Source: Psococerastis gibbosa (Eukaryota; Arthropoda; Insecta; Psocodea; Psocidae). From it: a stretch of 64,000 nucleotides of DNA. The stretch covers positions 39,145,419 to 39,209,418 of the forward strand of contig OZ020486.1 in assembly GCA_963971405.1 (NCBI GenBank), read 5' to 3'. A program made the position numbers and the translations under genes. Positions 6,306 to 61,895 of this stretch are shown piece by piece. The notes below the pieces were generated by a model. That model was not told where the DNA came from, made no database searches, and saw only the letters and a list, made by a program, of their open reading frames with translations. Each line of letters begins with the position of its first letter. Within the stretch, counting starts at the first letter, position 1.

Positions 6306-6597
6306 GGTAGCGTAGAGGAAAAGCAGGGTCTGCGGAATCTCCCTACACCTGATCGGCCATAGCCGAAAGGGATTTTTTTAGTTTTGAAGGCTAAACCTCC
6401 CTCCCCTCCCCCAAATTGAAATGCCTCAAAAAAATTTTCACAAGATATGAGGACATGTGAAATTACATAGGAATCCAGCGAGTAGTTTGCCCACAAATCG
6501 ACGAACACACAGACCCAATTCTTAACAAACACCTTTTTTTCTTCCTGGGACCTCAAAACGTGTAAATCCGTTGAAATATTTAAATCGAAAATTTCAA
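6306..6597. repeat. Interspersed repeat family D fragment
   Basis: Contains CCTCAAAACGTGTAAATCCG and AATTTCAACCATCACGAAGC. Related sequence is at 22,680-23,010, 34,520-34,660 and 50,340-50,600. It is read as a fragment of one abundant element that includes GTCCCAGGAA and CTGTCTGTC blocks; the full structure is not visible here. Confidence 0.5.
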
Positions 6598-7005
6598 CCA
6601 TCACGAAGCTTTCCTATACTAAAGTTTAGGAAAGCTAAAAAGCATGGGAAACTCGAGCCATACGGCTGCCCCTATGTTACAGATAATATCGTGACGGACA
6701 GACAGACAATGAAATCTCGAAATCCAAAATTTCGGCCATCACGAAGCTTTCCTTATACTACCGTTTAAATAGGAAAGCAATAGAAACATGGGACACTCGT
6801 GCCATACGGCTGCCTCTGTGTTTCAGATAACATCGTGACGGACAGACAGACAATGAAATCTCGAAATCCAAAATTTCGGCCATCACGAAGCTTTCCTTAT
6901 ACTACCGTTTAAATAGGAAAGCAATAGAAACATGGGACACTCGTGCCATACGGCTGCCTCTGTGTTACAGATAATATCGTGACGGACAGACGGACGTGAA
7001 CTTTG
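6598..7005 (+). repeat. Tandem repeat, three ~140-bp units
   Basis: CCATCACGAAGCTTTCC starts units at 6,598, 6,736 and 6,880 (periods 138 and 144). Each unit carries CCATACGGCTGCC, ATCGTGACGGACAGACAGAC and CGAAATCCAAAATTTCGG. Units 2 and 3 are nearly identical, so the last duplication is recent. Confidence 0.8.
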
Positions 7006-7414
7006 ATCCCCTGGAACATGCGGAAGTCCAGGTATTGACCAAGTATAGCCGTACGGCTAGATCGCTCCAGCTATGATAGTCCAATTCCGTGCCAACAAGG
7101 CATTCATTACCCCATATCAAACCGCTGTGAGGCCTTGGAAGGAAAACACTGTATCGTTCAGGTAATTAAGCTATGATTGGTGTCAGAACTCGAGTTTTAC
7201 ACCTCCAACTTTGTTAGCCACTTGTGCCCTAAGGAGCTCATTTGATTTTTTTAAACCATAATAGATAATTCATGCCCCCAATACATATTATAGCGTCACT
7301 ATTATTGTGTTGAAATGTATTATAGTATCTGCCCATTGTTGACTACGCAATCCTCCCATCGATCAATTCAGCGCTTTTGGATAGGGAAAATCGAAATTTA
7401 ACTCTAGGCACAAC

Positions 7415-7635
7415 GTCAGGACATGCAGAGTAGTGGTACGGACTCTGACTTTCACTCAAAAGGTTGTTGGTTCGAGTCCCACACTGGCTACATTTTCTGG
7501 CCATGCTTTGGAGGGCATGTAAAGCAGGCGGTCCCGGGTCTTCCTAACTGAGTGTAAGAGAGGGTTTTATAGTCCTAACTCCGTTAAGTTGGCTTAGTAA
7601 TAGAACAAAAGAAGTCGTTATTTATTTATTTTTAA
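7415..7635 (+). mobile_element. tRNA-derived SINE, full-length copy
   Basis: The head has a tRNA-like promoter: box A region GTAGAGTAGTGG (here GCAGAGTAGTGG) and a perfect box B GGTTCGAGTCC at about 7,470. The body (CTGGCCATGCTTTGGAGGGC, GGCGGTCCCGGG) is followed by a tail AAGTTGGCTTAGTAATAGAA and a TTATTTATTTA repeat. The tail matches the 3' end of the LINE at 19,512-19,872. Pol III transcription with LINE-driven retroposition is inferred from the class. Confidence 0.85.
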
Positions 7636-7689
7636 TTATTGCAGTATCTACAGGTGTATAATATGTACAAATGAGAAACAACTAAAGAA

Positions 7690-9935: not shown

Positions 9936-9980
9936 AAAACAAATAAATAAGGACTTTTTGTTCTATTACTAAGCCTAAAT
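9936..9980 (-). mobile_element. SINE/LINE 3' tail fragment
   Basis: AAATAAATAAGGACTTTTTG and TTCTATTACTAAGCC are the complement of the shared SINE/LINE 3' tail. Only the last ~45 bp remain. Confidence 0.6.
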
Positions 9981-11055: not shown

Positions 11056-11765
11056 TTGCTGGTTCTTGGGATGCCACTTGGGCCTATAATGCGGTGGTTT
11101 CCCCTTGCCTTCCGCATCCTATGCCGTTGACCGTCACTTGTTGCCAGGATCCAGTTCGTCCGCCTTTAGGGAGCTTTTCGTCTCCCATGGACAAGAGGGT
11201 GCCCATGCCCTAACTCCACGGAGTTAGACGGGGGTCTTTGACCGAACCCCACTCGGTACCTGCCTGTGTTAGCCGTCATTGAATGTTGACGTTGCCCGTC
11301 CCTCACCGCGAGGAGGTATAGGTCAGGAGTTTGCTGAGGGGCAATGCTAATGCTACACACAGATTATTAGGTAAACATATGTACAGGTAAGTAGCCAAGG
11401 AAGGATATTTCTGCATTAAAACAGGAATAGCAATTAGGCACTAAAATACAAGTGGTCACGGGTATGGGTCCAGCTGAAGGAAACAGGTGAAGCTCCTGAA
11501 CAGTGTCCAGACTTCTATCTCTGAAGTCAATGGCAATTATTTAAAGAATGCAAATAGGATACACAATACAGAGGGCTGGGAATCGGCAGACCGTGGAAAG
11601 TGTGCGCCGAGGAGAAGTCACCAGGCAACCAGGTGCCCAAAACATACCGTGTGTTGCGGGCTTGGCGTCAGGTTCTAATAAATGACATATGCCTTTACAT
11701 TATCACTAAGCAGACGTGTAAAACCCTATGATTTCAGCACTTTCAATTCCTAGTAGTTTGTCGTG
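11056..11765. other. Unassigned spacer
   Basis: 11,056-11,345 is GC-richer than its surroundings (CCATGGACAAGAGGGTGCCC), possibly part of an old mobile element. The remainder has small ORFs only. Confidence 0.3.
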
Positions 11766-12060
11766 GTAAATAAATAAATAAATATATTTCTGTTACATTA
11801 TACAATACAATACAGCAAGTACAAGAAAGTATAAAATAAAATCATCAGAATATCGTCAAAATCAGGTAGTTCTGTCATTGTCATTGTGCTAGTGCCTCAG
11901 TGACAGTGTAGAAAGCTTTCTGTAAGAGATGGTTTCTAAGGAATTTAGGGAAGTTAGAAGCATTTCTCGCCACTCTCAGCTCAATCGGGAGTTTTCTAAG
12001 GTAGGCGAAACCTTATAGTATAGGATCCAGTCGCTCACACATGGCTGTGCGTGGCGTTTC
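11766..12060 (-). pseudogene. CR1/L2-like LINE, RT C-terminus and 3' end
   Basis: On the minus strand, RKLPIELRVARNASNFPKFL followed by RNHLLQKAFYTVTEALAQ and a stop (about 12,005-11,887) is the conserved end of CR1/L2/Daphne-like RT proteins (K-L-P-x-E-L-R...F-K...L...K-A-F-Y). A frameshift or stop just upstream (TATAAGG) breaks the frame from TPRTAMCERLDPIL. A sister fragment at 48,524-48,600 lacks that defect (ATACTATACAAG). The 3' end is AATATATTTATTTATTTATT on the minus strand, a microsatellite tail. Confidence 0.7.
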
Positions 12061-12475
12061 TCCACAAATGGGGAAGACATGGACAATTTTGCAAAAGGGC
12101 AAAGATGATGGTGATCTTAATTGGTGACTGCGGAACAAGTTATTAGTATGAGTGATGAGTGTAAGCCGAACAGGAGAAGCAAAGCTGGCTTCAGGGATAT
12201 CAAAAACACTGCTGGAAGGACGGAGAACAGACTGACTGTCTGTACTGTGGAAAGTCGTACAAAACCAAGATGACTGAGCACTTGTGGAGAAAGGTAGAGG
12301 ATGCCAAAGCCAAAGTGAAGAAGGCGACAGCAGTTGCTGTAGTAAGCTATTTGTAAGCCATTGGCAGAGTTTGGGGAAATACAATGCTTCTTTTTGAAAT
12401 CTCTGACTTCCAGCAACTTCTAAAAGAGAACAATCTTTATACTTTGCATCCTAGAGTTGTTATGTTTGATAGCCT
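12061..12475 (-). other. Possible upstream part of the same LINE
   Basis: The minus strand is open from 12,384 to 12,013 (123 codons), in frame with the RT end downstream. The translation is Ser/Leu-rich and lacks catalytic RT motifs, so continuity with the LINE rests only on adjacency and frame. Confidence 0.25.
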
Positions 12476-12760: not shown

Positions 12761-13234
12761 CAGAAGAAGTTAATATGAAGTCAAAATGTACCATCAATTT
12801 TGGCTTCCTTCCACTACAATAACAAAGAAGTAATGAAAGAAAATTGTCTTAATTTTTCATATGGGCTAATTTCGAGACATTTGACCCACTCTTACAACTA
12901 ACCCATACAGTAAGAAAATAATTAAAGAACCCTTCTGACCTTGAAATGTGGCCCAAATTGATAAGAGACTGAACAATGTTCCCGGGAATTTTGTGAAACT
13001 AAGCCTGAGCTGTAAGTCGTACAACGCTGGTCGAATTCGGCGGTGCGTACCTAGATCCATACTAATAGGACGTTTGACACGGGACTGGCGATTTGTTATC
13101 ACTACCATTTATTCTCGACTTGTAAAATGCAAATGAGACACGCGTCACCGCGTTAGGCAAACCACTCACCCGTTCTCAGACTTTCCGCGTAAGACCCGGT
13201 ACAAAAAGACGATTCGGACGCTGGCGACAAGCCG

Positions 13235-13760
13235 GGAAAGCCTACATTGGAGGAGAAGGGCTGGTGCAAAACCACAGAGTCTGCTTTAGATTAGAAGATA
13301 TCTCTTGCTGAGCTGAGGGAAAGCCTTCATTGGAGGAGGAGGGTTGGTGCAAAACCACAGAGTCTGCTTTAGAAGCTATCTCTTGTTGAGCTGAGGGAAA
13401 GCCTTCATTAGAGGAGGAGGGTTGGTGCAAAACCACAGACTTTGCTTTAGAAGATATCTCTTGCTGAGCTGAGGGAAAGCCTTCACCGGAGCAGAAGGGT
13501 TGGTGCAAAACCACAGAGTCTGCTTTAGAAGATATCTCTTGCTGAGCTGAGGGAAAGCCTTCATTGGAGCCGAGAGATTGGTCCAAAACCACAGACTCTG
13601 CTTTAGAAGATATCTCTTGCTGAGCTGAGGGAAAGCCTTCATTGGAGGAGGAGGGTTGGTGCAAAACCACAGAGTCTGCTTTAGAAGATATCTCTTGCTG
13701 AGCTGAGGGAAAGCCTTCATTGGAGGAGGAGGGTTGGTGCAAAACCACAGAGTCTGCTTT
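13235..13760 (-). repeat. 78-bp minisatellite, about 6.5 units
   Basis: Repeats of GAGTCTGCTTTAGAAGATAT...CAAAACCACA with exact 78-bp spacing. The left-most unit has a short insertion (TTAGATTAGAAG) and there are scattered substitutions. Because 78 is a multiple of 3, several minus-strand frames stay open; the longest (13,748-13,242, 168 codons) reads SSNEGFPSAQQEISSKADSV as a 26-residue period. No splice context or conserved neighbour supports coding. Confidence 0.9.
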
Positions 13761-15429: not shown

Positions 15430-16783
15430 TACATTTCAAGGCGGAAATCACCAGGGTGGGGACTTAAATATGTGGTCTTTGTTATTTCTTTTGTTTTTCT
15501 AATTTTCGAAGCTAATGACCAGGCGTGAGTAGTCTTGGAGATTATACAGGCAGAATGGGATGGTTCTTGATGATGGTTTTTAAAAAGGTGCTTCAATGGA
15601 TGGTTCCTGTTAGTTTTGTGGACAGATTTACGATGCATGTTGATTATTGTGAGAATAAATATAATTACAATGAGTTCCTTGGCTGGAGTTAGATGATGTA
15701 CAAAAGAATTCAGCTTCTGAGTCGTGGCAGACCTGATCTGATTCAAACGTTTTGCAAACAGCTGCAGCGGTAGTATTTAGATTTAAAAGATCATACAAGT
15801 CTGGGCTTTTGAAACTGTTTCTGTAGAACCTTCGAGACACAGAAACACAATCAATGATGTGTCAATTTGGCCTTGGGCGGCTGCTCCTCTCACCCATAAA
15901 ACGCTCCACTAAAAGGCTGTGACCACCAACAGTAAATTCTAAATATCAAGGAAACAGTGCCTCATAGAGATTTCTCCCGTAGGACGATTCCTCGTCAAAC
16001 GGCTTTGAAGCCGAATAAGTATAAGCCACCCATTAGTTACATCCATGACACTATTGATTATTTTGGAGAGCCGTAGAGAAATGTATGGTGTCAGGTATTA
16101 TGATTTAATATCACCTACGTTTTGTCCAAATCTCTTAAACCTGCGCAAATAAGGTATGATGTTGCAACAAAGCTCGATGTGTGGTTCGTCCATAAATTTT
16201 GTAGTTTTTGAAAAATTAAGACATTAAATGGTACGAAAGTGCCAAAATGATTAATGCCAAGATGAGTGTTAGTTTAAACAAGTCATGGCGAGATATTGAG
16301 CAATGTGCATATCGTATAATATTAAATATAATAATATAATATTTAATATTAATATATTATATATTATGTTATTTAAAAAAAAAAAACAGTCTCCATGCTA
16401 AAAAAAAAATAGTTGCTAGGGACAGACATCAGACCAAATGAATAAATGTCAGTTAATTCCTTCGTGCACGCTCTCTGATTTAGAATACGATTTATGTCCA
16501 TATAGGGCTTTATGGCATTTTATAAATAGGCTACGTTTAGAATAAGATTATTATAAGCTAACTGTTGTTTTTTGTTTTGTTGACCATGTGTATCGTACTG
16601 TATTTTGGAAATTGCATTGTTTATTATAGGCTACTATCGTTTGACAATTATTAATCTTTTAAATATTTTATTTTAATTTTTAATTGTAAATAGTATGAAA
16701 TTGATATAAAATTAAAACTAGATTCTTTGCTAACACGGACGTGGAATAGACAACATGTTGTATTATCTACAGCGTCTACAATA
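15430..16783. other. AT-rich spacer with AT palindrome
   Basis: Short minus ORFs (15,746-15,429; 15,840-15,628) overlap and have no recognised motif. 16,318-16,385 is a nearly pure AT palindromic tract (ATATTTAATATTAATATATT) ending in an A run. Confidence 0.4.
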
Positions 16784-17007
16784 GTCAAGACATATAGAGT
16801 AGTGGTACGGACTCTGACTTTCACCCGAAAGGTTGTTGGTTCTAGTCCTATACTTGCTACATTTTCTGGCCATGCTTAGGAGGGCATGTAAAGCTGGCGG
16901 TCCCGGGCTTTCCTATTTGAGTGTAAGAGAGGGCTTTATAGTCCTAACTCCCCTAGGTTGGCTTAGTATAATAGAACCGAAAAGTCCTTATTTATTTATT
17001 TATTTAT
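16784..17007 (+). mobile_element. tRNA-derived SINE, full-length copy
   Basis: Same family as 7,415-7,635. Head GTAGTGGTACGGACTCTGAC, box B decayed to GGTTCTAGTCC, body GGCCATGCTTAGGAGGGC, tail GGTTGGCTTAGTATAATAG and TTATTTATTTATTTATTTAT. The box B change suggests it is no longer transcribed from its own promoter. Confidence 0.85.
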
Positions 17008-17830
17008 CTACTATGCGAGCCCCCGACAAGTTTATTAACTTGGGGCCCTCAGGATTTTTGTAATGTTATAATTGATAACCCTCCCTCCTCAAAATTCCTG
17101 TATATGGCCTTGCTGCGGCACCTATGTATATCGATTTAGTATTTGCAGTAGACGGTTGCATCAATTCACTGTATTATTCATACGTACGACTTGGCACCCA
17201 TTTAGACCTGTTTATTATTGTATTATTCATAAGGTATTATAATATAGTAAACTCACTAAAGGTCAAAAACATTCCGCATGAATGAAGTTAAATAATTGTG
17301 AAAGAGCAAATCATCATCACTCATCCGGGGCCTTAGAGTCAATATAACAATGAATTGCACCCTTCAATCTCCATATTAACAATTTACCATGCCGGCCATA
17401 CCGGGAGCTGCTGCATTTGAAACTATGAAATTAGGTTTAGACTAAATGTGCCTTACTATTAGGCTTACGCCTCGGTTTACACTTCTTTATTTGCATCGCT
17501 GCAATATTCTGCCTTTTTAAAGGTCATACAAACGGTATTGGACGAAAAAGGAAAGGGTATAATAAGACAAAGCTGCATAATAACTGTTGGCGTTGATCTC
17601 GTATTTTCTAGGGAGTGGGGGGGGGGGGCAGATAAATTCCATGCAGGGCTTTAAACCACCCAAAACCAAACCACCCCTAGAGGTAGTTTATTACCTTATC
17701 TAGAAAATAGCAGTTGGTGGGCATTTTGCTGACCACATTACTGTAAATTGGCCAGTTACTAAAAGGCTTATTCTCAATGGCCATAAGAATATGATGCATA
17801 CTGGAAGGGAAAACAATGGATGTGCACGAT
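17008..17830. other. AT-rich spacer
   Basis: A G run at 17,619-17,630 without a recognisable partner may be a MITE remnant. Otherwise nothing supported. Confidence 0.35.
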
Positions 17831-18014: not shown

Positions 18015-19490
18015 TGCATGATAGGGCATAATAACATTTTAAAAAAGCCTCGCGTTTTTCTTTAGAGAGGGAGGTATGAAACAATTATACGACATAAATT
18101 GTCACAAAGGCTTTGGCGCCCCAAAACAATGTGACCAAGCACTTGGTAGAGTGAGCTTCTTGGACTAAATGTATCAAAAAATACAAAACATGTTCCTTTA
18201 TTAAACTAACCCCCATCCCTTTTTCTCGACTTATTCAAATGCCCTGCTGGTTTTCCAGAGAACCAATTACCAAGCCAGCCCTTGTGTATACCTTTTACCT
18301 TATACATACGGGCCAAACAACAAGAATGTTGTTGACCATATCGCCGCATAACAATACATCAGTAACAACCTGTTGTCAATTAACAAAGGATTGGTTGGAC
18401 TTTACCTTTTTCAATTTTTTCTACACTCAATTACCCCGAGGACTGCTGGTGTTCCAACATTTTATAGGCACCATTTGTTACCACCAGAATGACATATACA
18501 CACACAATCCCCTTGAGGATTCAAACTGCCGTTCTCCCGGATGAAATCCATGCTCCCTAACCATTCTCTTTAACATGTTGTTAAGAAAGACAATTCTTCG
18601 CGAATTCTCAGCCACATAATATTTTTTCAACGCTGAGGACTGCTGATGCTCCACCATTTACAGGCACCATTTGTTACCACCAGCGTCCAGAATTACATAT
18701 ACACAGGAGGTGGTGCAAAATACAGTATGTAGTGACGCCCAAACATGTCTGCATAAAACTAATAAAAAGCAAATTATTTGGACTGTTACGTGTATCCGCC
18801 CTTTACGTTACCTAATGCTATTCAGATTTTACACCCCCAAGCAGCACGCGTTAGTGAGGATTGCATTACATAAATAAATATAAAGCGTGCGCTCATTTAT
18901 AGTTCACATTATCTAGGAAAAGTGGTAGAACAGGAGGATGGACATATACGAGCAGGTAGGCGTGCGAACCTAAGGTACAAACACTCAGGGCGGTTCACTG
19001 CTCCCATATTTATATGCTATCTGGTACGGTCTTGTCGTTGTTTTTGAAATGGACCTTTTTTGCATAGGAAAATGTCAGAGGCCAATCAGGTTATACGGTT
19101 AACCAAACAAAAATTTGAAAGTCACGCAATCTCGGAATTCTTTACGAAAGACATTCGTTAAACACAAACCCAGACTTCTACATCCTTCATCCTTCGCGAG
19201 CTCGTTTCAGCGTGAGGGGGTGCCCGATCTACTTCTTAAACAATTTCGGTAGGCTACCAGGGTGGGAAGCTCCGGCATAAACTCGCCCCTCCACCCTATC
19301 TGTATCCCTCCAAAGTTAATCTAGGTCGGCTGGTCGCGGTCATCTTCTTTGCCGGCCTGATTCTAAGTGATTCAATGCTCTCCCATTCAGTGGCATGTGT
19401 TAATTGGCCTCCAAACCTTTGCTGGAAGGTGTAGCTAGTGTGGGCCTCAATTTCGAAGTTGAACTTACTACCCTTCGAATGAAATCATGA
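18015..19490. other. Spacer with an internal ~75-bp duplication
   Basis: GGCACCATTTGTTACCACCA occurs at about 18,467 and 18,662, each followed by ACATATACACA and preceded by GAGGACTGCTG, so a block of about 75 bp is duplicated about 195 bp apart. Small ORFs (18,239-18,544; 18,671-18,877) overlap it and are not recognised. Confidence 0.5.
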
Positions 19491-19511
19491 ACTACGCTGG
19501 CTAAAGCCTAA

Positions 19512-19872
19512 AGAGCAAAAAAAGAACATGCACTTCTATACCTATTTAAGATATTACATACCAAGAACCCATTTTACCTATCATCCTTATTCACATACTT
19601 GTCTGATTACCACAATTTTAACACAAGAGCTTCTAACAAACTGTCTATTCCTAGAAACCGAACCAATCACTACAATCATTCCTTCACAGTGAACACCTCC
19701 ATGCTTTGGAATTCTTTGCTAGAAGAAACGAGAACAGAGAATAATTTGGGGAGATTTAGGACAGCCTGCCATCAGGTTCTGGGGAGTGAAGTGTGAGAGT
19801 GAATGAACTCCGCTAGGTTGGCTTAGTAATAGAACAAAAAAGTCCTTATTTATTTTATTTATTTATTTATGA
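19512..19872 (+). pseudogene. CR1/L2-like LINE, RT C-terminus plus 3' tail (SINE partner)
   Basis: Open for 94 codons (19,512-19,796): RAKKEHALLYLFKILHTKNP, FYLSSLFTYLSDYHNFNTRA, then SFTVNTSMLWNSLLEET and GRFRTACHQVLGSEV before TGA. The H-N-F-N-T-R...L-x-I-P-R...S-x-x-W-N-S-L pattern is the conserved end of CR1/L2-type reverse transcriptases. The catalytic core is missing (5' truncation near 19,500). The 3' UTR follows directly: AACTCCGCTAGGTTGGCTTA, GTAATAGAACAAAAAAGTCC, then a TTATTTATT repeat. That tail is the SINE tail. Confidence 0.82.
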
Positions 19873-21721
19873 GTGCCTGTGCCATTATTTATTTATTTTG
19901 CTGTTTTTTTTTCAGGAAAATGTTATGAAATTAATGTGAAAATAATTTGTTACCAAAATGGGTTAGCTGGAAGAGTAGCCCTTCGGAGCTATAGTTCGCC
20001 TAACATAAAGACGTTTTCATTTCATTTCACTACGGTACAGTATCATGCAGCCAAAAATATGGTATATATTGCCTGGGCCCCGGACCCTGCACCTTTCCAT
20101 AGCAGCTGAGCCAAATTTCGAAAAAAGAAACAGATTTATGTCTGCCAGAAGAGCCACAACCCCCAACCGAAAAATAAAACTACAAAATCGATTTAATTTA
20201 ATTTTTTGTAATATTGTACTTTATACATTGTTTTAACTTATGTGTATTGGACCGGAAATATAGGGAATGAGCCAAAGAGACGCATGCACGTTGCCGGCCC
20301 CTGGTCTAGGATACCGATAACAACAAAAATATAATCAAATAAATTTCATAATCTCCCCATTACACTAAAACAAATTGATTCATCAATCAAACCGTTATAG
20401 CCAACGACAGACGACACCCATTCAAAATTATCCCCGGAAACGCGCATAACTTTCCAACAATTCATTCCGCCTTTTTATTTTCAAAATTGCACGATCATTC
20501 AAAAAATGCCAACCTAATTTTGTCGACCTGCTGCTGCTGCCTACTCATCACCGGGGTAGGTGCGCCTCACCCCATCTCGTCACGCTTGCCGCCGCAACAC
20601 AATGCGCTCGCAATTCTTCCGTGCCTAATTTTCTGCTGCCTGACTTCAGGACCAACCTGTTTTTATTGTCAGTGTCTTTAAGGTAGCTTCCTCCAGCTAA
20701 TTATCTTGCTCTTCCCTTATTCACCCTTTGTATTCTTCGGTGGATGAAGAACGTGTCATCTGCGTTGATGGCCTGGTGCTGCTTTTTATTCTAATTTTAT
20801 TCTGTGTCTGGGGGGTTAGGAAAGCATCTTGGGATGTCTGTTTTTATGGAAATTCAGAGAAGACCGGTACCATACTGGTCAGGGTGTTTTGTGTAACGAA
20901 GTGAGAACGTTTACGGCGAAGAAATAATAATTCTGGTACCTACATTTTTGTTGGAAAACAACTCACCGGACAAGTTCTTTTTTATAGTTCATTTTGAGAA
21001 GAAAAGGTTGGTTAGGGGATCATTTATTTTCATTTATTTTTATTTTTTAATAAATCACTTCGTCTATAATAAAAAAAAAGTAGTAATTTAAAGTAAAGTA
21101 AAGTAAATTTATTTATCGAGAAATACATTCTACATACATTTCATTAGTGGTTCAGAGGGGCACCTATGGGAATTCCCGTGATGGGCCCCTCCACTTAATA
21201 GATAACATTTATATTATAACTTATTCTAAACACTTAATCTACTTTATAATTACAACTAGGCTTCACGGCTGGAGTCACGTGATGAAGCAGTAGAATCCGG
21301 GGTAATAGGCGTGTATCCAAACGTTTTGTCAACATCTGCGGCAACATCTTCAGTGGAACTGAGTAGACTTCTAAGATTGTATCTCGAAGGCTCAGTGGCA
21401 ACTGAAGTACTCTTCCAAAACGACCATGGCCCATCATCCCGAATTTACTGCTTCATCACGCAGTAGTAATTTTTTCGAGTAGCATATTTAATGGGAATTT
21501 TTGGTTAACGCGGATGCTTATTTCCACGTAGACGGTAGTACAGTATCTACGTGCTTATTATTGCCATGATGATTGCCAATTTTCGTAAGATGTGGCATCC
21601 GAAGTAGAAGAAGAATATTCGGATCCCAGGTTTTTAAGAAAAAAGTAGATATCCCATATACATAATTATAATGTGTGGAGTTTATTGCACGCAAGACCTT
21701 TTAATCTGTACAAAACTATCC
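19873..21721. other. Spacer, no gene supported
   Basis: Short plus ORFs at 19,873-20,109, 20,045-20,236 and 20,487-20,681 overlap and are unrecognised. GGCTTCACGGCTGGAGTCAC at about 21,260 resembles CTTTCACGGCCGGAATTAC at about 38,610, and TGGCCCATCATCCCGAATTT at about 21,427 resembles GGCCTATCATCCCGGATTTT at about 39,473, so a further low-copy repeat probably lies here. Confidence 0.35.
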
Positions 21722-21863
21722 GGTGGCCATGCTTCGGAGAGCATGAAAAGCAGGCGGTCCCGGGCCATCCTAGTTGAGTTTAAGAAAAGGCTTTATAGCC
21801 CTAACTCCACTAGATAGGCTGAGTAATAGAACAAAAGTCCTTATTTATTTATTTAATAATCCC
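21722..21863 (+). mobile_element. tRNA-derived SINE, head missing
   Basis: Starts in the body (GGTGGCCATGCTTCGGAGAG), continues GGCGGTCCCGGGCCATCC and ends with the LINE-like tail AGTAATAGAACAAAAGTCC and TTATTTATTTA. The promoter head is lost, consistent with 5' truncation. Confidence 0.8.
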
Positions 21864-22505
21864 TATAGAGGAGGACTAGAGATTAAAATTTTGAGCCATG
21901 GAACCTGACAAATAAGGTGAAAATAAATTCAAGACAACCCAATATTAAATCTCCCCAAGACAAAACCTTCAAAATGAAGACATTTACCAAAGACATTAAC
22001 CTCTAGAGGGTCACCATGAACTTTTGACCGAACACATAGAAAATGTGCTCAAAACATCACAAACTGCCAATTTAACGACCGAGTGACAGCCATTACATAA
22101 ACGTTATCTAACGCAGTTGAAATACGCAGTCGGCCGCAGCTGTGATTTAATTCCAAAAGAGATATTTCCCCCCAAAACTTGAACCCGTTTGGATATGCCA
22201 TAACAATAGCCATTAGTTCAGTCGAGAGGTTAAGACGTTTGTGGCCAACTAGCTGGGCTTATTGGGCCGAGTTATGATGACGATTTACAAGGCATATTTG
22301 GTGATACAACTATCGCGTACAAGTTTAAAACGTGTTGTTGAGCTGGATAAAAATTTATTGTTATTTATCCATTATCTGCGTTAGAGCCATTAAACATTGT
22401 TTGTTTTAAATAATTGTACGATACATGGATCGTAATTGCTTTGATAGCTATGACCAGGTGTTCTTTTTAAGGTCCATAAGCTTCGTCAATGATATCATAA
22501 TAATA

Positions 22506-22664
22506 GAAAGGACTTTTTATTGTTTCTATTACTAAGCCAACCTAGCGGAGTTAGGGCTATATAGCCCTCTCTTACACTCAACTAGAAAGGCCCGGGACCG
22601 CCTGCTATACATGCCCTCCGAAGCATGGCCAGAAAATGTAGCCAGTGTGGGACTCGAACCAATC
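22506..22664 (-). mobile_element. tRNA-derived SINE, nearly complete, minus strand
   Basis: The tail complement (AGGACTTTTTATTGTTTC, TACTAAGCCAACCTAGCGGA) lies at the left and the body to the right, ending at GGGACTCGAACC, the complement of box B. The box A half is missing. Confidence 0.82.
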
Positions 22665-22679
22665 ATTACTATTCTTTTT

Positions 22680-23010
22680 CTTTAAATGCTATTCTATCGA
22701 TGATTGCGGATTATAACGGCAAAAATATTTTTTTAGGTGTTTTTAGGGTAAACCGCCCCAAAATTGAGTAAGCCCAAAACATAAAAAAATATTCCTGAGA
22801 TAGGATTTTTGTTAACCTGTATGCAAATTGTAATAAAATTCAACCAGTATTTTTCCCACAAATCTATGACATCTACAGACATACCATCAACTGAGAGAAA
22901 TTTCGTGAAAATCACATTTTCTTGTTTCTGGGGAAAGTATGTAAATCCACTGAGATTTGGAAATCGAAAATTTCAACCATCACAAAGCTTTCCTTGCACA
23001 ACGTAAAAAT
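22680..23010. repeat. Interspersed repeat family D fragment
   Basis: CAAAATTGAGTAAGCCC, CCTGAGATAGGATT and AAAATTTCAACCATCACAAA are shared with 6,306-6,620, 34,520-34,900 and 50,340-50,600. Non-coding. Confidence 0.5.
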
Positions 23011-24222: not shown

Positions 24223-24962
24223 GTGACGTCATTTTGTAGATGCCAGCACTAGTTGCACTGATATCAAAGCGTTGATTTTCACATAAGCCTCTATACGATT
24301 ATAAAATTATTTTATTTATGTATTATTTTAAAGTGATATTTTTCTATAAATCATGGAGAATAAATATATTAAATTATATGCAGCGAAATAAGGTCTAGGT
24401 ATAGTAAAAATATTATAAAAATTATTAAAAGAATTTATTAGATGCTAAGAGCTTAGCTTTCTCATGCAAACAGCGGCTATTTTGAATAAAATGATGGATA
24501 TCGGTTTGTCGTCAGCGAACCTAGTGACCAAAACTGTCCCTACAGAACCTCATCACCGCCATAGATAAAAGTAAAAAACAACAATGAAAACTTGAGAAGT
24601 TCATAGATAGGTCTGATAGCCATTGACTAGTGATAAGAGCATTAATAATATCCCTGAGGAGGGCGGGGCCATCTAATTGCCACGTATAATCCTAGAAACT
24701 TATTCAATGGCCTATTAATTAAGCATTGAGGTCATCTCAGTGTCATGGGATTTTGTAATAACAATTATAAATCCCCTTAAACGTTACTTATGATTGTAGG
24801 CTCAATTAGAATAATTAACTATGAGTGTTTACAATATGACGTAGTCCTTATTCCATTTCCTGACTTTTTTTTCGATTGTAGGCTTAAAAACATTTGTCAT
24901 AATCATGCAAATTTTATACTACAATAAATAGTGAAACTTACTTCCCCTTTAAATAAATAAAT
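24223..24962. other. AT-rich spacer
   Basis: No feature supported. Confidence 0.35.
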
Positions 24963-25060
24963 GAAGACTTTTTATTGTTTCTATTATTAAGCCAACCTAG
25001 CGCAGTTAGGGCTGTAAAGCCCTCTCTTACACTGAACTAGGAAGGCCCGGGACCCCTTTC
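24963..25060 (-). mobile_element. tRNA-derived SINE, tail half
   Basis: AAGACTTTTTATTGTTTC, AAGCCAACCTAGCGCAGTTA and GAAGGCCCGGGACC are the complement of the SINE tail and distal body. It breaks at the CCCGGG site; the promoter is absent. Confidence 0.75.
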
Positions 25061-26147
25061 GGTTTGTTTACTTCTTGAGTAATTTACTAAACACCCAATG
25101 TCGAAGCTATTTAAAATTAAATTAAATTTATATGTATTTACATATTTACGTATATTTTTTTATGTATTTACATATTTACGTATTGTGTGTGTGTGTATTG
25201 TGTATTGATTGTATTGATTGTGATTACGTATTGTGTGTATTTTTTGGAGTCCTGGAGCCTTCAAGGGAGTCCCCTTATGGGCACTCTAACGGAGTTTAAT
25301 CAAAATCTGATCCCCTCCCCCCACAAAATGAGCTAGATCCGTTAATGAACAAAGGGGACACATTTGAAACCACAGGTTACAAGGGGTTGGGAACAATATG
25401 CCCATCCAAAAGCCTGATGTAAATGCTATCCCAAAACCCAACAGTTTCGACTTAGCAAACATAAATGATTAAATAAACCTCATTGCACCTAAGAACACCA
25501 TTCATAGAACAAATACATCTCTGAAACTGACAAAATTGCAAATTAGACAAGATCCGTATAAAGCATTGTGACTAATGAGTACATAGCCGGCGATTTGTTA
25601 CTTACCCATACTTTGTAAGTGCGTTATTTTTATGCAAAACACAAATACTAACAAGATTTCATTCGATGACCACCCTGACTTCTCCCCTATTAAGGTATCT
25701 TTAACAGATATGTAGGCGGTAAAATAGAAAAGAGTATAGCAATGAAAGTCGTATAAGTCAACTATGGTTGATGACTATTTGGCTGTAACATTTGCGAATA
25801 GCCGTACCATTTACATGGATGGATTACCACTCAGTTATAATTTGTCATTTGACAATAAAGCTGCCACTGTAATTTATTTAATAACTTTTACAAACTTCTA
25901 AATGTCATGAGATTTTATTGCGCAGGCCAAAAAATAATAAATAATTGGTAAGGTGGATACATATTTTGGTTATTCAACACTACTACTATAATACTACTTA
26001 GCCAAATTTATTGTTGAGTGATATTAGATATTTTCCGTTACATAGTGTTGGCTAGGTATGTACCTGCATAAATTGTTATGACAATGACTTACAACCCGAA
26101 CACGATAGGGTGGCACTGGAAACACTTTGTTTATTCGAAAACTTGCT
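25061..26147. other. AT-rich spacer with simple repeats
   Basis: 25,130-25,235 has duplicated TATGTATTTACATATTTACG and GTGTGTGTGTATT/GATTGTATT repeats. The remainder has nothing supported. Confidence 0.45.
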
Positions 26148-26938: not shown

Positions 26939-27103
26939 AAAGGAACACTGAGTTTATTCGATTTTTATAAGTTTTCCAAGTGCCATCGTGGTCGGGTAGT
27001 ATAGAGTCGTCAAGTTTATTATAATCAGTAACTCCAACAATTTTTCTGACAATAAGTACGACAGCTGCACAAAGTGGACAATTTGTTTATTTCAAATAAT
27101 TAT

Positions 27104-27214
27104 GTCAGGGCATATAGAGTAGTTGAGTGGACTCAGGCTTTCACCCGAAAGGTTGTTGGTTCGAGTCCCATATATTAATTGCTACTTTTGTGGCCATGCT
27201 TCGGAAGGTTTGGT
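27104..27214 (+). mobile_element. tRNA-derived SINE, head only
   Basis: GTCAGGGCATATAGAGTAG, TTTCACCCGAAAGGTTG and a perfect box B GGTTCGAGTCC, then a short body (GGCCATGCTTCGGAAGG) ending in an A run. The LINE-derived tail is missing. Confidence 0.75.
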
Positions 27215-30420: not shown

Positions 30421-31730
30421 ATAAAAAAAAATAAATATTATGTATATTTTCAATTATATTGCCAAGATATTAATGATATCCGCTCACACGGATGTTTAAG
30501 CTAAGAAGGTATCTCACATTACCAACCAATTAACGAAGCAGGATCCTAACTTTCTGCAGAAAGCAGACCTAACACTACGAAAGGCCTGCAGCTTGAATAG
30601 AATCACAGAACCAAGAGCAACTAGACAGTTGAAACTGTAAGAATTCAGCAGAAACACGACAGAAAGTGCAAATGTAGAATTTACGAGGAAGCATTGCGCT
30701 TGTAAATCAAAACAAGATGCAACGCGTACCTGTCGATGGCAATCTGCAACTTCTGCAAATAAGGCATTTGCAAATGGCTGCGAGGTTGCTGAGCGCGAAA
30801 TGCCATGTTCACCCTCTGGGAGTGCCACCGAAGATCTTCCTCAACCAGCAGGCAATAGCGAATGTGCCTAGGTACAGCCGTTGTACCCAGTAAAACATGA
30901 TGACAACTATCCCATAATGTTCTTCAATGATCCATTCAGAGTCGCGTTGGCTTATTTATTGGTTACATTAGAAAGTTCTTGTTTGCCTTTCTTCATTTGT
31001 TGATTTTGCATGAATAAATTTCTGCAAATGCGGTAATACAGGACTTGCGTGTATTAGATGGTGTTTTATTGCTTTTCTTCAGCAGGATGCTGTTTACATG
31101 GTCAATTTAATAATGTAGATGAAGAAACGGGTTATAAGGTTTAGCTAGGAGTGAATTTCTAGGAAAACTATTTTATTGCATTAATGGCTGTCAAGTTATT
31201 GTAGAAAATATGGTAGAAGGATGAAAATTGGAAAGAATAATGAAATATTGAACAGGATTATATTTATAGTGGATTACCGACAGTCTTTTCTGATAGATTC
31301 TTTGGGATAAGGAAATACGTGGCAGTAGATAAATTAGCATTGTAATGTGCCCGTCAGTTCTCATAATCGTCACCCACCATTGAACTGTTACCTGCATTTT
31401 TTTGGTTATGAAACCAGTAGCAATGTTTTATTCTATAGAACCTAAAAAAAATACTTCTTCCTGTCATCTGTTCATTTGAGCTAACGCCTGTCACAATTTC
31501 AATGGTAAGCATGTGTGATCTTGCTCATTGCTACTTGTAGTGGGTGCGGGTTGACACCGAGGAATGATTTTGTTATTTTCTTTCTTCTTCATGAAGCTTT
31601 AAGAGCGGATCCCACGATCGCTTGGACAACCCCTGAATGCGTGCTTACTTGGACACCGGCCCTAGCATGTGGGAACACAGTTGGGCTGGTTAATTTCTCA
31701 TAAATTATGAATTTAATTTAATTTTAATTT
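30421..31730. other. Spacer, small ORFs only
   Basis: A minus frame at 30,828-30,514 (104 codons) is unrecognised. 31,497-31,565 is a weak partial copy of family A (CAATGGTAAGC ... GGTTGACACCGAGGAA). Otherwise AT-rich. Confidence 0.35.
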
Positions 31731-32190
31731 AATTTTGTATTTAGTGATACATTTTATGAAAAGCTTTTATGTTGACATGCGAAGTAACTATCGTAAGCAT
31801 CACGGTTAATGGCAATGGTGTAATACTATTGAAATCTTAAATGTTTAATATGTTAAATAATACATGCATGAAATTTAATTTAATTTTGTATTTAGTGATA
31901 CATGTTATGTAAAATTTTTATGTAGACATGCGAAGTAACTATTGTAAGCATCACGGTTAATGGCAATGGTGCAATACTATTCAAATCTTAAATGTTTAAT
32001 ATGTTAAATAATACATGTATGAAATTTAATTTAATTTTGTATTTAGTGATACATGCTATGTAAAATTTTTATGTAGACATGCGAAGTAACTATTGTAAGC
32101 ATCAAGGCTAATAGCAATGGTGATACTATATATGGAAATACTATTCAAATCTTAAATGTTTAATATGTTAAATAATACATTTATGAAATC
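31731..32190 (+). repeat. Three tandem 151-bp units
   Basis: AATTTTGTATTTAGTGATAC begins units at 31,731, 31,882 and 32,033 (two periods of 151 bp). Each contains GACATGCGAAGTAACTAT, AAGCATCACGGTTAATGG and AATGTTTAATATGTTAAATA. The third unit has an insertion (CTATATATGGAAATA). Divergence is low. Confidence 0.9.
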
Positions 32191-34529: not shown

Positions 34530-34900
34530 CAGATTTTTGCTTTCCAATTTATACGTAGTATAAGGAAAGCTTTGTGATGGTCGAAATTTTCAATTCCGAG
34601 ATTTCAACGGATTTACACGTTTTGAGGTCCCAGGAACCCAAAAAAGTGGTTTTTACGAAATGTCTCTCTGTCGCTCTGTCTGTCTGTCGCTCTGTCTGTC
34701 TGTCGCTCTGTCTGTCTGTCGCTCTGTCTGTCTGTCGCTCTGTCTGTCTGTCGCTCTGTCTGTCTGTCAGTTCATCGATTTCCGGGAAAAACTACTCTGC
34801 CGATTTTGATGAAATTTGGCACGTAGGTTCTCAAAAATCATACCTCGGGACCATTTTTTTATTTTGGGCTAACTCAATTTGGGGGGGTTTTATTCTCAAA
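34530..34900. repeat. Interspersed repeat family D with TCTG microsatellite
   Basis: GGAAAGCTTTGTGATGGTCG, ATTTCAACGGATTTACACG and GAGGTCCCAGGAACC match, inverted, 6,540-6,610. 34,661-34,768 is a microsatellite with a 16-bp period, GCTCTGTCTGTCTGTC, about six units. Open frames across it (34,574-34,978) come from the repeat itself. Confidence 0.65.
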
Positions 34901-48600: not shown

Positions 48601-48710
48601 CAGTTCTCCCCTTTGCCTCGTGTTTTAGGTTTGGGGTATCCCCGTTTTGTTTAAATTTCTCACACACCTTAGGCCTTAGATACCGTATTTAAAAAAAATA
48701 TATATATATC

Positions 48711-48921
48711 GACTTCTTTTGTTCTATTACTAAGCCAAACTAGCGAAGTTAGGGCTATAAGCCCTCTCTTACACTCAACTATGAAAGCCCGGGACCGCCT
48801 GCTTTACATGCCCTTCGATTTCCGAAGCCTGGCCAGAAAATATAACAAATATGGGACTCGAACCAACAACCTTTCCGGTGAAAGTTGGAGCCCGTTTCAC
48901 TGCTCTACATGCTGTCCTGAC
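48711..48921 (-). mobile_element. tRNA-derived SINE, full-length, minus strand
   Basis: The left tail complement (CTTCTTTTGTTCTATTACTA) runs through the body to box B complement GGGACTCGAACC, then TCACTGCTCTACATGCTGTC for the box A half. Head and tail both present. An insertion (GATTTCCG) sits in the GGGCATG stretch. Confidence 0.85.
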
Positions 48922-50339: not shown

Positions 50340-50607
50340 AAAATAGGTTATTTAAAAAAAAGCAACCGTATCTTTTAGTTCTTAAGGAGCTAAACCCCTC
50401 AAAATTGAGTTAGCCAAAAAAGGTCCTGAGATAGGATTATACTCAATCTACACGCCAAAGTTGGTCAAAATTCATCGATTAGTTTGTCTGCAAATTGACG
50501 AACAGAGTCAACAGACTGAGATACTAACAGACAGATTGACTGGCACTTCGTAAAAACCCCTATTTTTGCTCCTGGGACCTTAAGAATTATCAATCCTCAG
50601 AAATCTC
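50340..50607. repeat. Interspersed repeat family D fragment
   Basis: CAAAATTGAGTTAGCC, GTCCTGAGATAGGATTATAC and CTCCTGGGACCTTAAGAATT match the family at 22.7, 34.5 and 6.4 kb. Confidence 0.5.
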
Positions 50608-50820
50608 GTCGGGACATGTAGAGTAGTGGTACAGACTCCGACTTTCGCCCGAAATTTAGTTGTTTCGAGTCCCACACTTATTACATTTTCTGGCCAGCAT
50701 GAAAAGCAGGTGGTTCCGGGGCCCGGGTCTTTCTAGTTGAGTGTAAGAGAGGGCTTTACAGCCGTAACTCCTCTAGGCTGGCTTAGTAATAGAACTAAAA
50801 AAGTCAATATTTATATATTT
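50608..50820 (+). mobile_element. tRNA-derived SINE, full-length copy
   Basis: Head GTCGGGACATGTAGAGTAGT and GGTACAGACTCCGACTTTCG; box B decayed to TGTTTCGAGTCC. Body lacks the CTTCGGAGGGC portion (GGCCAGCATGAAAAGCAGG). Tail GCTGGCTTAGTAATAGAACT. It lies just left of the RNase H LINE insertion. Confidence 0.82.
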
Positions 50821-50858
50821 CTTTAAATCTCGGAATCAACAATATTGACCATCCTTGG

Positions 50859-50893: not shown

Positions 50894-52173
50894 GGGGTAC
50901 AGGTGTTACCTGTGTGCACTTAAGCCTATTGGGCCTATTGTGCCCCCTACAACAAAGAATCTACATATCTACATCAGTTCCTCGAGGCCTATTTCCCTCA
51001 GGAGAGCCAGGACCTTGAGGGGATTTAGAAGTGGTAGGTCTTTTACATGTAATTGCAAGTTTCCCAAGCATGCTGCTCTTCTACGTGCGATTGCATCGCA
51101 GTGAAGGAGGATATGCTCGGGGTCCTCCGCTCCTTCGTTACAGAATCTGCATGCTCTAGACTCTCTGACACCTATGTTGGTCAGATGTCCATTCAAGTTG
51201 CAATGCCCAGAGAGGAATCCTGTGATCACACGCAGATGTCTCCTGTTCATATTAATGCATACTTGGGCTCTTTTGCGCTGGTGGCTTCCCAGGAGCATTT
51301 TGGCTTGCCGAAGGCCCGGCAATGAGGTCCAGTATTCAGCCACTTTCAGGTTCTCCCTGCCTTTAACAAATCTGCGGGCGAGGGTTTCCCCAACACCGCA
51401 AAAAGGTTCGGGTCCCGTAAAAGGGGAGGTAGCTCCCCTTTTTGCAAGCTGGTCAGCAACCTCATTGCCTTCAATGCCTGTGTGCCCAGGCACCCATATC
51501 AAGGTAACCTTATTCGCACCGGACAGTATGTCCAGTTTCAATCTACATTCCCACACTAGTTGTGAGGTGATTTTGTATGCTGTTATTGCTTTAAGGGCTG
51601 CTTGGCTATCTGACATGATAACAATTTCTCTCGATCTGTATTCCCTGTCGAGATTCATTTGCATACATCTGTCAAGGGCACATAACTCAGCCTGGTAGAC
51701 TGTAGTTGTCTCCCCAAGAGACTCCAGATATTTCACCCCAGGACCAAAGACGCCAAGACCTGTTCTTGGTCTTGTACGTCCCAGCCTAGAGCCATCAGTG
51801 AACCACTTAATTGTGTGACTATTGAGAATTCCTGCTGATTCGCAGTATTCTTTCTTTGTCCCTAATATAGTTTCGAATTCCCTCTTAAAACAGTATTTTG
51901 GGTGAATTCTATCGCTTGGCATATCCAGGCAGTGGTTAGACGTAGTCAGAGAGGCTGAGTCTCTCTTAATTGCCCTTCCACTCCTTTTTACCCCGCTCCT
52001 AATAATCCGTAGCCTTGCCATTTCGGCTGACGTTTCCACTGCAATATGGAGGGGTGGGAAGTCCAGCACAATCTCCATTGCTGCAGTGGGACAGGATTTC
52101 ATAGCCCCTGTAATGCATACACAGGCCAGTCTTTGTACTTTAGTGAGGGTGTCTCTTATACTTTGTACTGCAG
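50860..52173 (-). mobile_element. 5'-truncated Jockey/R1-group LINE with poly(A) and target duplication
   Basis: The poly(A) appears as a 29-bp T run at 50,860-50,888. ATCCTTGGCT(T) lies immediately beyond it (50,851-50,860) and again at 52,174-52,184 at the truncated 5' end: a target-site duplication of 10-11 bp. Between them are about 1.3 kb of element with an uninterrupted ORF end and the 3' UTR shared with 8,401-8,470. The clean tail, near-perfect duplication and intact frame point to a recent insertion by target-primed reverse transcription. 5' truncation removed endonuclease and RT. Confidence 0.92.
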
Positions 52174-52225
52174 ATCCTTGGCTTATACCAACGGATAAAT
52201 AGAAAAGCAATATAGCGCACCGCAT
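50969..52225 (-). CDS. RNase H and zinc-knuckle end of a LINE ORF2 (5'-truncated)
   Basis: RNase H degrades the RNA strand of the RNA/DNA hybrid during retroposition. The 418-codon frame holds the end of the RT thumb (LTKVQRLACVCITGAM, residues 27-42, and FPPLHIAVETSAEMARLRI), then RNase H with WFTDGSRLG (D144), VYQAELCALD (E180), IMSDSQAALKA (D206) and WVPGHTGIEGNEVADQLAKR (H248, D258): all four catalytic acids are present. C359-x2-C362...H371-x4-C376 follows. This layout fits Jockey/I/R1-group ORF2. The apparent Met start is not native: residues 1-17 are read from flanking DNA across the target duplication, and LINE sequence begins at about residue 18. RT and endonuclease are missing, so it cannot act alone. 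Confidence 0.9.
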   Translation of the reverse strand: MRCAILLFYLSVGISQGSAVQSIRDTLTKVQRLACVCITGAMKSCPTAAMEIVLDFPPLHIAVETSAEMARLRIIRSGVKRSGRAIKRDSASLTTSNHCLDMPSDRIHPKYCFKREFETILGTKKEYCESAGILNSHTIKWFTDGSRLGRTRPRTGLGVFGPGVKYLESLGETTTVYQAELCALDRCMQMNLDREYRSREIVIMSDSQAALKAITAYKITSQLVWECRLKLDILSGANKVTLIWVPGHTGIEGNEVADQLAKRGATSPFTGPEPFCGVGETLARRFVKGRENLKVAEYWTSLPGLRQAKMLLGSHQRKRAQVCINMNRRHLRVITGFLSGHCNLNGHLTNIGVRESRACRFCNEGAEDPEHILLHCDAIARRRAACLGNLQLHVKDLPLLNPLKVLALLREIGLEELM

Positions 52226-52969
52226 AACATGGGACGACCTTGAAATAAATTATGGGGCACACGGCAAGTTGGCCGAATCGGACATTTGACACTGCGAGTA
52301 CGAACTTTAAGGAAACTATAAGTTGTAGGGAGCACATCAATCTCGTAACATGTTTATTGTCAGTGGAGAGGTTATTGTACTCAATTCCAGCTGACCCTTA
52401 ATTTGAAGACACATTAGGAAACTTCTCCAGTGTTGGGACACGGTATGTATCCGATATATATATGGTTCCTCGTTTGCATGACACAGTGGCCACTTTCGAC
52501 GCGGGTATCGTATCGTAGTCGTATCGATACAATCGCGGGCAGTACGTCAGTATTGAACTCGGTCATATATCAGCAGAGCTTGTTTAACTCGCCTTAGGCC
52601 CGGACGACATATTTAGATTGGGTAACTTAAATACCCGCGCGTGAAAGAGGAACATTAACAAACAATGGGGGGAAATTTTATAAATTCTTCGGGTGACATT
52701 TATTTGACGTTGACTGGGTTTTCCTTTGCTGGAGAAGCCAATAATGTCATTATTTATTCATTAAAGTAAAATATAAGTTATAATACTTTACTCAGGTTAG
52801 TCCTTAAGAGAAAATTGGTCTCTGACTACGCGTTTTTTTTACAAGGTCGAATATGCATTACGTATCGATCGTAGAGTAATAATTGGAGTAGAATAAATAA
52901 GTAGAAGAACCTATATGGAACTATTCCATTATTATATTGCTCATTCTAATAGATAAATAGGGAAGCAAT
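52185..52969. other. Spacer
   Basis: GC-moderate with TATCGTATCGTAGTCGTATC. ORF 52,340-52,140 (-) overlaps the LINE junction and is an artefact. Nothing else supported. Confidence 0.35.
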
Positions 52970-55232: not shown

Positions 55233-55310
55233 GATCAAAAATATCAGCGGACGGGACTACTTGGACCTTGGTCGTGTAGCCACCATCATCTATTGCCCAA
55301 TATCCGCTAG

Positions 55311-57539: not shown

Positions 57540-57625
57540 TCTATCAATATAGCCCTAACTCCGCTATATTGGCTTAGTTAAAGAACAAAAAAGACCTTAT
57601 TCATTTATTTATTTATCAATAAATA
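57540..57625 (+). mobile_element. SINE/LINE 3' tail fragment
   Basis: GCCCTAACTCCGCTATATTG, GCTTAGTTAAAGAACAAAAA and a CATTTATTTATTTAT tail. Head and body missing. Confidence 0.7.
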
Positions 57626-57704: not shown

Positions 57705-58240
57705 TAAGCCTATACGTCCCGTACGAAATTGGCAGCCCGAAATTTAATAATTCCCTCTTTTATTTTATTAACTAAGCAAGTTATTAAAATATCAGTTCAT
57801 TTAAGTTGTAGAAGACTACTTTATGCTACTGGCTACATTTTCTGGCCATGCTTCGGAGGGCATGTAAAGCAGGCGGTCCCGGGTCATCCTAGTTGAGTGT
57901 TAGAGAGGGCTTTACAGCCCTAACTCCGCTAGTTTGGCTTAGTAATAGAAACAATCAAAAGTCATTATTTATTTTTTTATTTATATGCATCATATAATAG
58001 GAGGGTATTATTAATATTTGGTTTTAAAGTTTTTTCATGATATCTACAGCAGCTAGACAAAAGCTCATCAAACTTTTAACAAACATTTAACTTCAAAATT
58101 TAGCCCTCAATCATTTTTTATGAAAAAGCTTCGGTACCAAAAATGAATAATACCTTATTACATTATGCATGAAGTAGTCTTCTACAACTTGAATGAGCCC
58201 AATATTTAATGTCTAGCTTTGTTAATTAAATAATGGCCCA
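57705..58240. mobile_element. Foldback element F, copy 3, split by a SINE
   Basis: Left TATACGTCCCGTACGAAATT then GGCAGCCCGAAATTTAAT; right arm GCATGAAGTAGTCTTCTACA then ACTTGAATGAGCCCAATATT, inverted. The right terminus is lost past about 58,240. A SINE occupies 57,828-57,988 between ACTACTTTATGC and ATATGCATCATATAATA. Confidence 0.8.
57828..57988 (+). mobile_element. tRNA-derived SINE, head missing, nested in foldback F
   Basis: CTGGCTACATTTTCTGGCCA, TGCTTCGGAGGGCATG, GGCGGTCCCGGGTCATCC, then GTTTGGCTTAGTAATAGAAA and TTATTTATTTTTTTATTTAT. TTTATGC/TATATGC on either side may be a target duplication. Confidence 0.82.
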
Positions 58241-61205: not shown

Positions 61206-61895
61206 GTGACAAGCTCAAACCACGCCTATAAGGAAGTTTTCACTTTAAGAACCATAAGGAGCCATCCCATTGACGGGACCAAACCTCGCCCCGATTGGCT
61301 GGATGCGGCCAAGGAGTTTTTCACTGCAAGAACCATAAGACACCATCTTATTGATTGGACTGAACCTGGCCCGGATTAGCTAGACATGTCTAAGGAGTTT
61401 TTCACTTCAAGAACCATAAGGCACCATAAAAATGAATCTGGCCCTGATTATGTTCCCGGTACGGCCATCTCATTGACCGGACGGAACCTGGCCCTGATTA
61501 GCTAGACTCGTTTAGGGAGTTTTTCACTTCAAGAACCATAAGGCACCACCTCATTGTCTGGGCTGGAACTGGTGCTGATTAGGTTCTAGGTACGGCCTAT
61601 GCGAACATCTGATGTCACATGAAATTATTGGAAAGTCAGGCTCTGACGTATGACGCCAAACTTCATGACAAGCTCAAGCCACGCCTATTTGGAAGTGTTC
61701 ACTTCAAGAACCATAAGACACCATCTTATTGACTGGACTGAACCTGGCCCTGATTAGCTAGACTCGTCTAAGGAGTTTTTCACTTCAAGACCATAAGGCA
61801 CCATCTCATTGTCTGAGCTGAAACTGGCCCTGATTAGGTTCCAGGTACGGCCTATCCGAACATCTGATGTCACATGAGATTAATGGAAACGCAGG
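61206..61895 (+). repeat. Satellite-like array, ~85-120-bp monomers with higher-order period ~459 bp
   Basis: CAAGAACCATAAG-type monomer starts near 61,246, 61,329, 61,410, 61,531, 61,696 and 61,786. Each carries CCATCTCATTGACTGGAC and AACCTGGCCCTGATTAGCTA variants and GGAGTTTTTCACTTC. A larger block (GACAAGCTCAAACCACGCCT at 61,211 and GACAAGCTCAAGCCACGCCT at 61,670; CATCTGATGTCACATGA twice) gives a second-level repeat. The short plus ORF (61,170-61,379) has no independent support. Confidence 0.85.

Follow-up and report, generated by a model that had tools for sequence, protein, structure and literature searches.

Does the short sequence that follows a reverse transcriptase-like reading frame at 19.8 kb in this stretch of the Psococerastis gibbosa genome form the 3' end of a LINE, and is it this LINE that mobilises the SINE copies ending in the same sequence nearby? 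An earlier note on this DNA had proposed that it is. We addressed this question in the whole stretch of 64,000 nucleotides, referred to here as the window.

SINE copies and their tRNA-like head

Eight SINE bodies dispersed over both strands of the window were delimited and aligned, and every one of them ends in the shared 3' tail. The element is about 200 nt long, plus a TTATTTA-type repeat, and the copies diverge by 2.6 to 10.4 % from their own consensus (n = 8). The head is mostly present in four copies (7414, 16783 and 50607 on the plus strand and 48902 on the minus strand). Three of them are full length, at 7414–7640 with the tRNA-like head, box B and tail, at 16783–17010 and at 50607–50830; the fourth, on the minus strand at 48687–48919, has box B and tail, with the head from 48902 to 48919 assigned by eye. 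The 5'-truncated copies are found at 22665 on the minus strand (22487–22685, box B kept), at 57825 (57806–57987) and 21715 (21697–21863) on the plus strand, and at 25060 on the minus strand (24943–25075).

An nhmmer search with a profile of these copies returned 18 rows, eight of which are the source copies that match by construction (7432, 16801, 50625, 57826 and 21717 on the plus strand; 48901, 22665 and 25060 on the minus strand). The remaining rows include the tail at 19806, a tail-less head at 27123–27211 on the plus strand and two tail-only pieces, one at 57548–57619 on the plus strand and one at 9936–9977 on the minus strand (E 7.1e-7). Further rows correspond to a weak old tail at 55291 on the plus strand (E 1.4e-4) and to four matches at E 0.08 or worse. 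The earlier count of at least nine SINE copies sharing the tail therefore becomes eight bodies, the others being two or three tail-only pieces.

The tails fall into two types, GAACAAAAAAGTCC (type A) and GAAACAATAAAAAGTCC (type B). Type-B-like tails end the three truncated copies with tails at 57922 on the plus strand and at 22552 and 25007 on the minus strand, and type-A-like tails are found in the other five SINEs. The two types suggest two subfamilies. The tail behind the LINE-like frame is of type A.

Three of the eight tail-bearing copies have the box B motif GGTTCGAGTCC without any mismatch (7414 on the plus strand, 22665 and 48902 on the minus strand), and two have it with one mismatch (16783 and 50607). 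The tRNA-like box B previously ascribed to the SINE heads is consequently seen in five of the eight; it is absent from three, all 5'-truncated. An exact box B is also present in the plus-strand head at 27103–27211, which has no recognisable tail and whose 3' half is unlike the usual body and tail. This element is either an old copy or a member of a second SINE family sharing the head.

The Rfam tRNA model spans 7419–7490 over its whole length with 14.6 bits, under the gathering threshold of 29 (E 2.1), and an unrelated Rfam family has a better E value among the matches listed. The same tRNA model gave no match at the head at 27103. ARAGORN reported no tRNA in the SINE at default settings; with a relaxed cut, it called Glu(TTC) in two of the five sequences supplied (the consensus plus four heads), and assigned the remaining three to other types or left their type undetermined. 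By eye, box A departs from the consensus TRGYNNARNNG at one position. Judged from these sequence features, a tRNA origin of the SINE head is plausible but weak.

The reading frame at 19.8 kb and the tail behind it

The frame in question occupies 19512–19796 on the plus strand. Printed from 19482, it has a preceding stop at 19509–19511 and stays open for 94 codons until the TGA at 19794–19796, so that translation bears out the open frame and the stop described earlier. Its peptide ends in ...HNFNTRASNKLSIPRNRTNHYNHSFTVNTSMLWNSLLEETRTENNLGRFRTACHQVLGSEV and carries an ordered motif set that we take to mark the C-terminus of a CR1/L2/Rex-type LINE protein. By eye, a different frame continues the likeness to reverse transcriptase upstream as far as about 19490 (ELRWLKPKEQ). 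The three plus-strand frames of 18300–19530 contain no match to a simple pattern for the RT catalytic motif, and the C-terminus alone is present. A weak SINE-head-like match on the minus strand at 19405–19485 (E 7.7e-5) overlaps the possible start region of the LINE frame.

Sequence searches with the peptide returned no relative. Pfam gave one unrelated family only, under its cut-off, and the PDB sequence search found no relative. The peptide pattern matched 5 stretches in viral_contigs and 46 in genome_contigs, with none confirmed in either set and no relative found, and tblastn against plasmids yielded a single unrelated match (E 5). It is conceivable, given a frame with neither an accepted family in Pfam nor a solved relative in the PDB, that 19512–19796 is a chance open frame and that the tail behind it is an ordinary tail-only SINE piece. 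The length of 94 codons alone proves nothing because the window contains 16 stop-to-stop frames of at least 110 aa. Against this stands the ordered set of C-terminal motifs, apparently that of the CR1/L2/Rex type, and we consider a chance frame improbable. We infer that 19512–19796 is the end of a LINE reverse transcriptase.

Behind the stop comes AACTCCGCTAGGTTGGCTTAG, followed by the repeat. The shared tail starts nine bases after the TGA, in sense, and occupies 19806–19845, composed of AACTCCGCTAGGTTGGCTTA (19806–19825) and GTAATAGAACAAAAAAGTCC (19826–19845); a TTATTTA-type terminal repeat follows at 19846–19869. The tail had been described as lying directly after the stop, which the gap of nine bases makes nearly right.

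We compared this tail with a consensus of the eight SINEs that was built without the LINE copy at 19806. All 40 of 40 letters agree with no mismatch and one gap of 1 nt. An nhmmer profile of the eight SINEs, with 19806 likewise left out, finds 19806–19859 at E 1.5e-13. Ungapped comparison with 19806–19845 as the query gives scores of 27 to 34 of 40 for the eight SINE copies, compared to 24 of 40 for the best non-tail place in the window (10838, plus strand) and to a maximum of 22 to 23 of 40 in five dinucleotide-block shuffles of the plus strand. The sharing begins sharply at AACTCC: upstream of it, 3 to 47 % of random 60-mers equal the score across the eight SINE copies. A candidate homology upstream of the tail, linking the SINE body (AGTGTAAGAG) with the RT end (AGTGTGAGAG), was rejected at this same level of 3 to 47 %.

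A second LINE-like C-terminus, assigned by eye, is found on the minus strand at 11751–12081, where LPIELRVARNASNFPKFLRNHLLQKAFYTVTEALAQ is followed by a stop; near 11781 its own 3' UTR passes into a TTTA repeat, and the shared tail is missing. The terminal repeat alone is therefore not diagnostic, and this second end would fit an explanation in which SINE and LINE tails are alike by chance or by microsatellite convergence. For the 40 nt ahead of the repeat, both the nhmmer E value and the gap between the SINE scores and the shuffles refute such an explanation, to which we give hardly any credence. The match between the SINE and LINE tails is not due to chance. If the tail does belong to the LINE, the 3' end of the SINE is identical or close to that of the LINE at the only LINE copy.

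Other elements lie in the same window. On the minus strand, 50969–52249 holds an open frame of 426 aa in which an RNase H domain (E 2.2e-16) is accompanied by a zf-RVT match under the cut-off; it looks like a LINE remnant of the RNase H-carrying type. Tandem arrays are found at 13234–13760 (78-bp units), 6582–6995 (144), 31723–32189 (151), 34661–34768 (16) and 61230–61427 (81).

Pair or insertion

The common tail could belong to the LINE, or it could have been carried behind the RT stop by a SINE. According to the second explanation, what stands at 19806 is a SINE truncated from its 5' side down to the tail and inserted after the stop, and the 3' UTR of the LINE resumes at about 19870 and ends at 19884–19899. 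Tail-only insertions do occur in the window. The piece at 57548–57619 is bounded by the target-site duplication (TSD) TATCAATA, which in the test at 57557 on the plus strand was equalled by 6 of 2000 random flanks, and the piece ending at 9977 on the minus strand has an imperfect TSD, TGTTTTAATYTA, equalled by 29 of 2000. This explanation stays serious because these two pieces are bounded by TSDs. An 8-bp TSD is plausible at two of the eight SINE bodies, AAATCTCG at 50607 and TTATCTAC at 16783, with none evident at the remaining six bodies.

The tail at 19806 is itself flanked by an imperfect candidate duplication, GAGTGAATG and GAGTGCCTG, identical at seven of nine positions. This duplication is at chance level, as 470 of 2000 random flanks equal it. 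The scenario that the earlier note had named as refuting, in which a SINE tail entered behind the RT stop, is in this way backed by the existence of such insertions in the window and not by the duplication at the site itself.

A further feature that might point to an insertion is a second stretch of the TTATTTA type, ATTATTTATTTATTTT, at 19884–19899, just downstream of the LINE tail and 14 nt beyond its repeat. The LINE itself may end here, in which case the SINE tail would have been inserted ahead of this stretch. At two mismatches it is the sole plus-strand stretch of its kind outside the tails. Similar stretches outside the tails occur at about five places on the minus strand, and a looser pattern adds four on the plus strand; for this reason the stretch at 19884–19899 carries small weight.

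An insertion would also require that the piece arrived in sense and no further than about 10 nt from the LINE stop. We estimate the probability that a tail-only piece lands near a LINE stop by chance as 4 pieces x 2 LINE stops x 20 nt / 128,000, or about 1.3e-3, a figure calculated post hoc. The reading of SINE and LINE as a pair is favoured because the tail sits in sense only nine bases after the stop, whereas random landing there has a probability of about 1e-3. Taking both sides together, we regard an inserted SINE tail as rather unlikely.

A mobilisation pair of SINE and LINE is probably the correct reading and the best one, though unproven. Directly observed are the common tail, its place behind the RT-like stop, a SINE head that resembles a tRNA and has box B, and the TSDs at two tail-only pieces. 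That the tail at 19806 has no convincing duplication around it, unlike those two pieces, speaks for the pair. Counting against it are the single LINE copy, the second ATTATTTATTTATTTT downstream, a candidate hairpin that shows no covariation, the database searches that did not confirm the RT, and the outcome of the search for a TSD of the whole LINE. Comparison of the 5' region at 19380–19530 with the flank from 19866 gave no such duplication, and 288 of 300 random regions did equally well. A 7-bp repeat, TTTGCTG, is present at 19418 and 19897; by arithmetic, about 0.5 exact matches of this kind would be expected within the searched space.

The earlier note went further and proposed that this LINE drives this SINE. 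What holds of this proposal is a shared tail, in sense, behind an RT-like stop; it concerns one LINE copy, whose identity as a reverse transcriptase of the CR1/L2 type has no database support. We infer that the tail is part of the LINE and would be recognised by the LINE protein, and that the LINE at 19.8 kb would have driven the SINE.

We hypothesize that a tRNA-derived SINE family and a LINE resembling the CR1/L2 group form a mobilisation pair in the following manner. The 3' UTR of the LINE would be short, comprising the 40-nt tail and the repeat, and the SINE would have acquired this tail at its 3' end. RNA polymerase III would make the SINE RNA by way of the internal box A and box B, the LINE protein would take this RNA at the tail, and the RNA would be copied at a nicked target site by target-primed reverse transcription.

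The recognition step might involve an RNA structure, and a 6-bp stem can indeed be drawn in the tail (GCUAGG-UUGG-CUUAGU). It is paired in 84.8 % of cells, compared to at most 53.6 % when slid by one to three columns. The stem has no covariation, with 500 of 500 shuffles scoring at least as high by five measures in an alignment whose 12 short rows give low power. Nor is the stability of the tail fold unusual relative to shuffles (z 0.50; four other folded stretches range from -1.25 to 0.19). With neither covariation nor extra stability, a conserved recognition hairpin in the tail failed as a candidate, and the sequence gives no support for recognition through a stem-loop.

Relation to known SINE/LINE pairs

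CR1 and RTE are the predominant clades among the known pairs reviewed in PMC3747384, which also describes experiments on eel SINEs that backed the common-tail hypothesis. Table 1 of that 2013 review contains at least one protostome pair, and insect cases reported since then include those in PMC8010984 and PMC9191728.

Among the cases compared, the closest is the pair PxLINE1.1/PxSE5 of Plutella, for which PMC8010984 describes a common 3' end of 43 bp, a short 3' UTR and a terminal tetranucleotide repeat. The elements described here likewise share a short 3' end, with a LINE that has a short 3' UTR and a simple repeat at the very end, and the present pair would be of that type. The two cases differ in that PxSE5 is 5S-derived, the repeat of its LINE is ATGT, and more LINE copies and TSDs were found in Plutella, as reported in the same paper.

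A 3' tail common to SINE and LINE, a LINE of the L2 group, as the present one may be, and terminal short repeats are also described for UnaL2/UnaSINE and ZfL2 (PMC4176376, PMC3747384). In those systems the need for a stem-loop was demonstrated by experiment, including that of the 3' stem-loop of the zebrafish L2 elements ZfL2-1 and ZfL2-2 (PMC4176376), whereas the candidate hairpin has no support here. The Gecko SINE of Aedes is an insect tRNA-derived SINE with a LINE-like tail, as the present SINE may be; its partner LINEs belong to the I clade (PMC3747384), as opposed to the CR1/L2-like element here. Similarly, Sbg8 of Blattella germanica, paired with an RTE element of Locusta, is a tRNA SINE with a LINE-like 3' part and a tetranucleotide tail; it differs in having an RTE partner and a ttag repeat, a comparison that relies on the description given in PMC9191728.

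It is possible, if doubtful, that we are dealing with an undescribed pair of a SINE and a CR1/L2-type LINE in which the signal is only 40 nt long, begins less than 10 nt past the ORF stop and contains no conserved stem-loop, so that recognition would proceed by sequence and terminal repeat and not through a hairpin. SINE/LINE pairs reveal which enzyme copies a SINE. If true, a pair with such a very short common tail would help to define the minimum of RNA that a LINE has to recognise.
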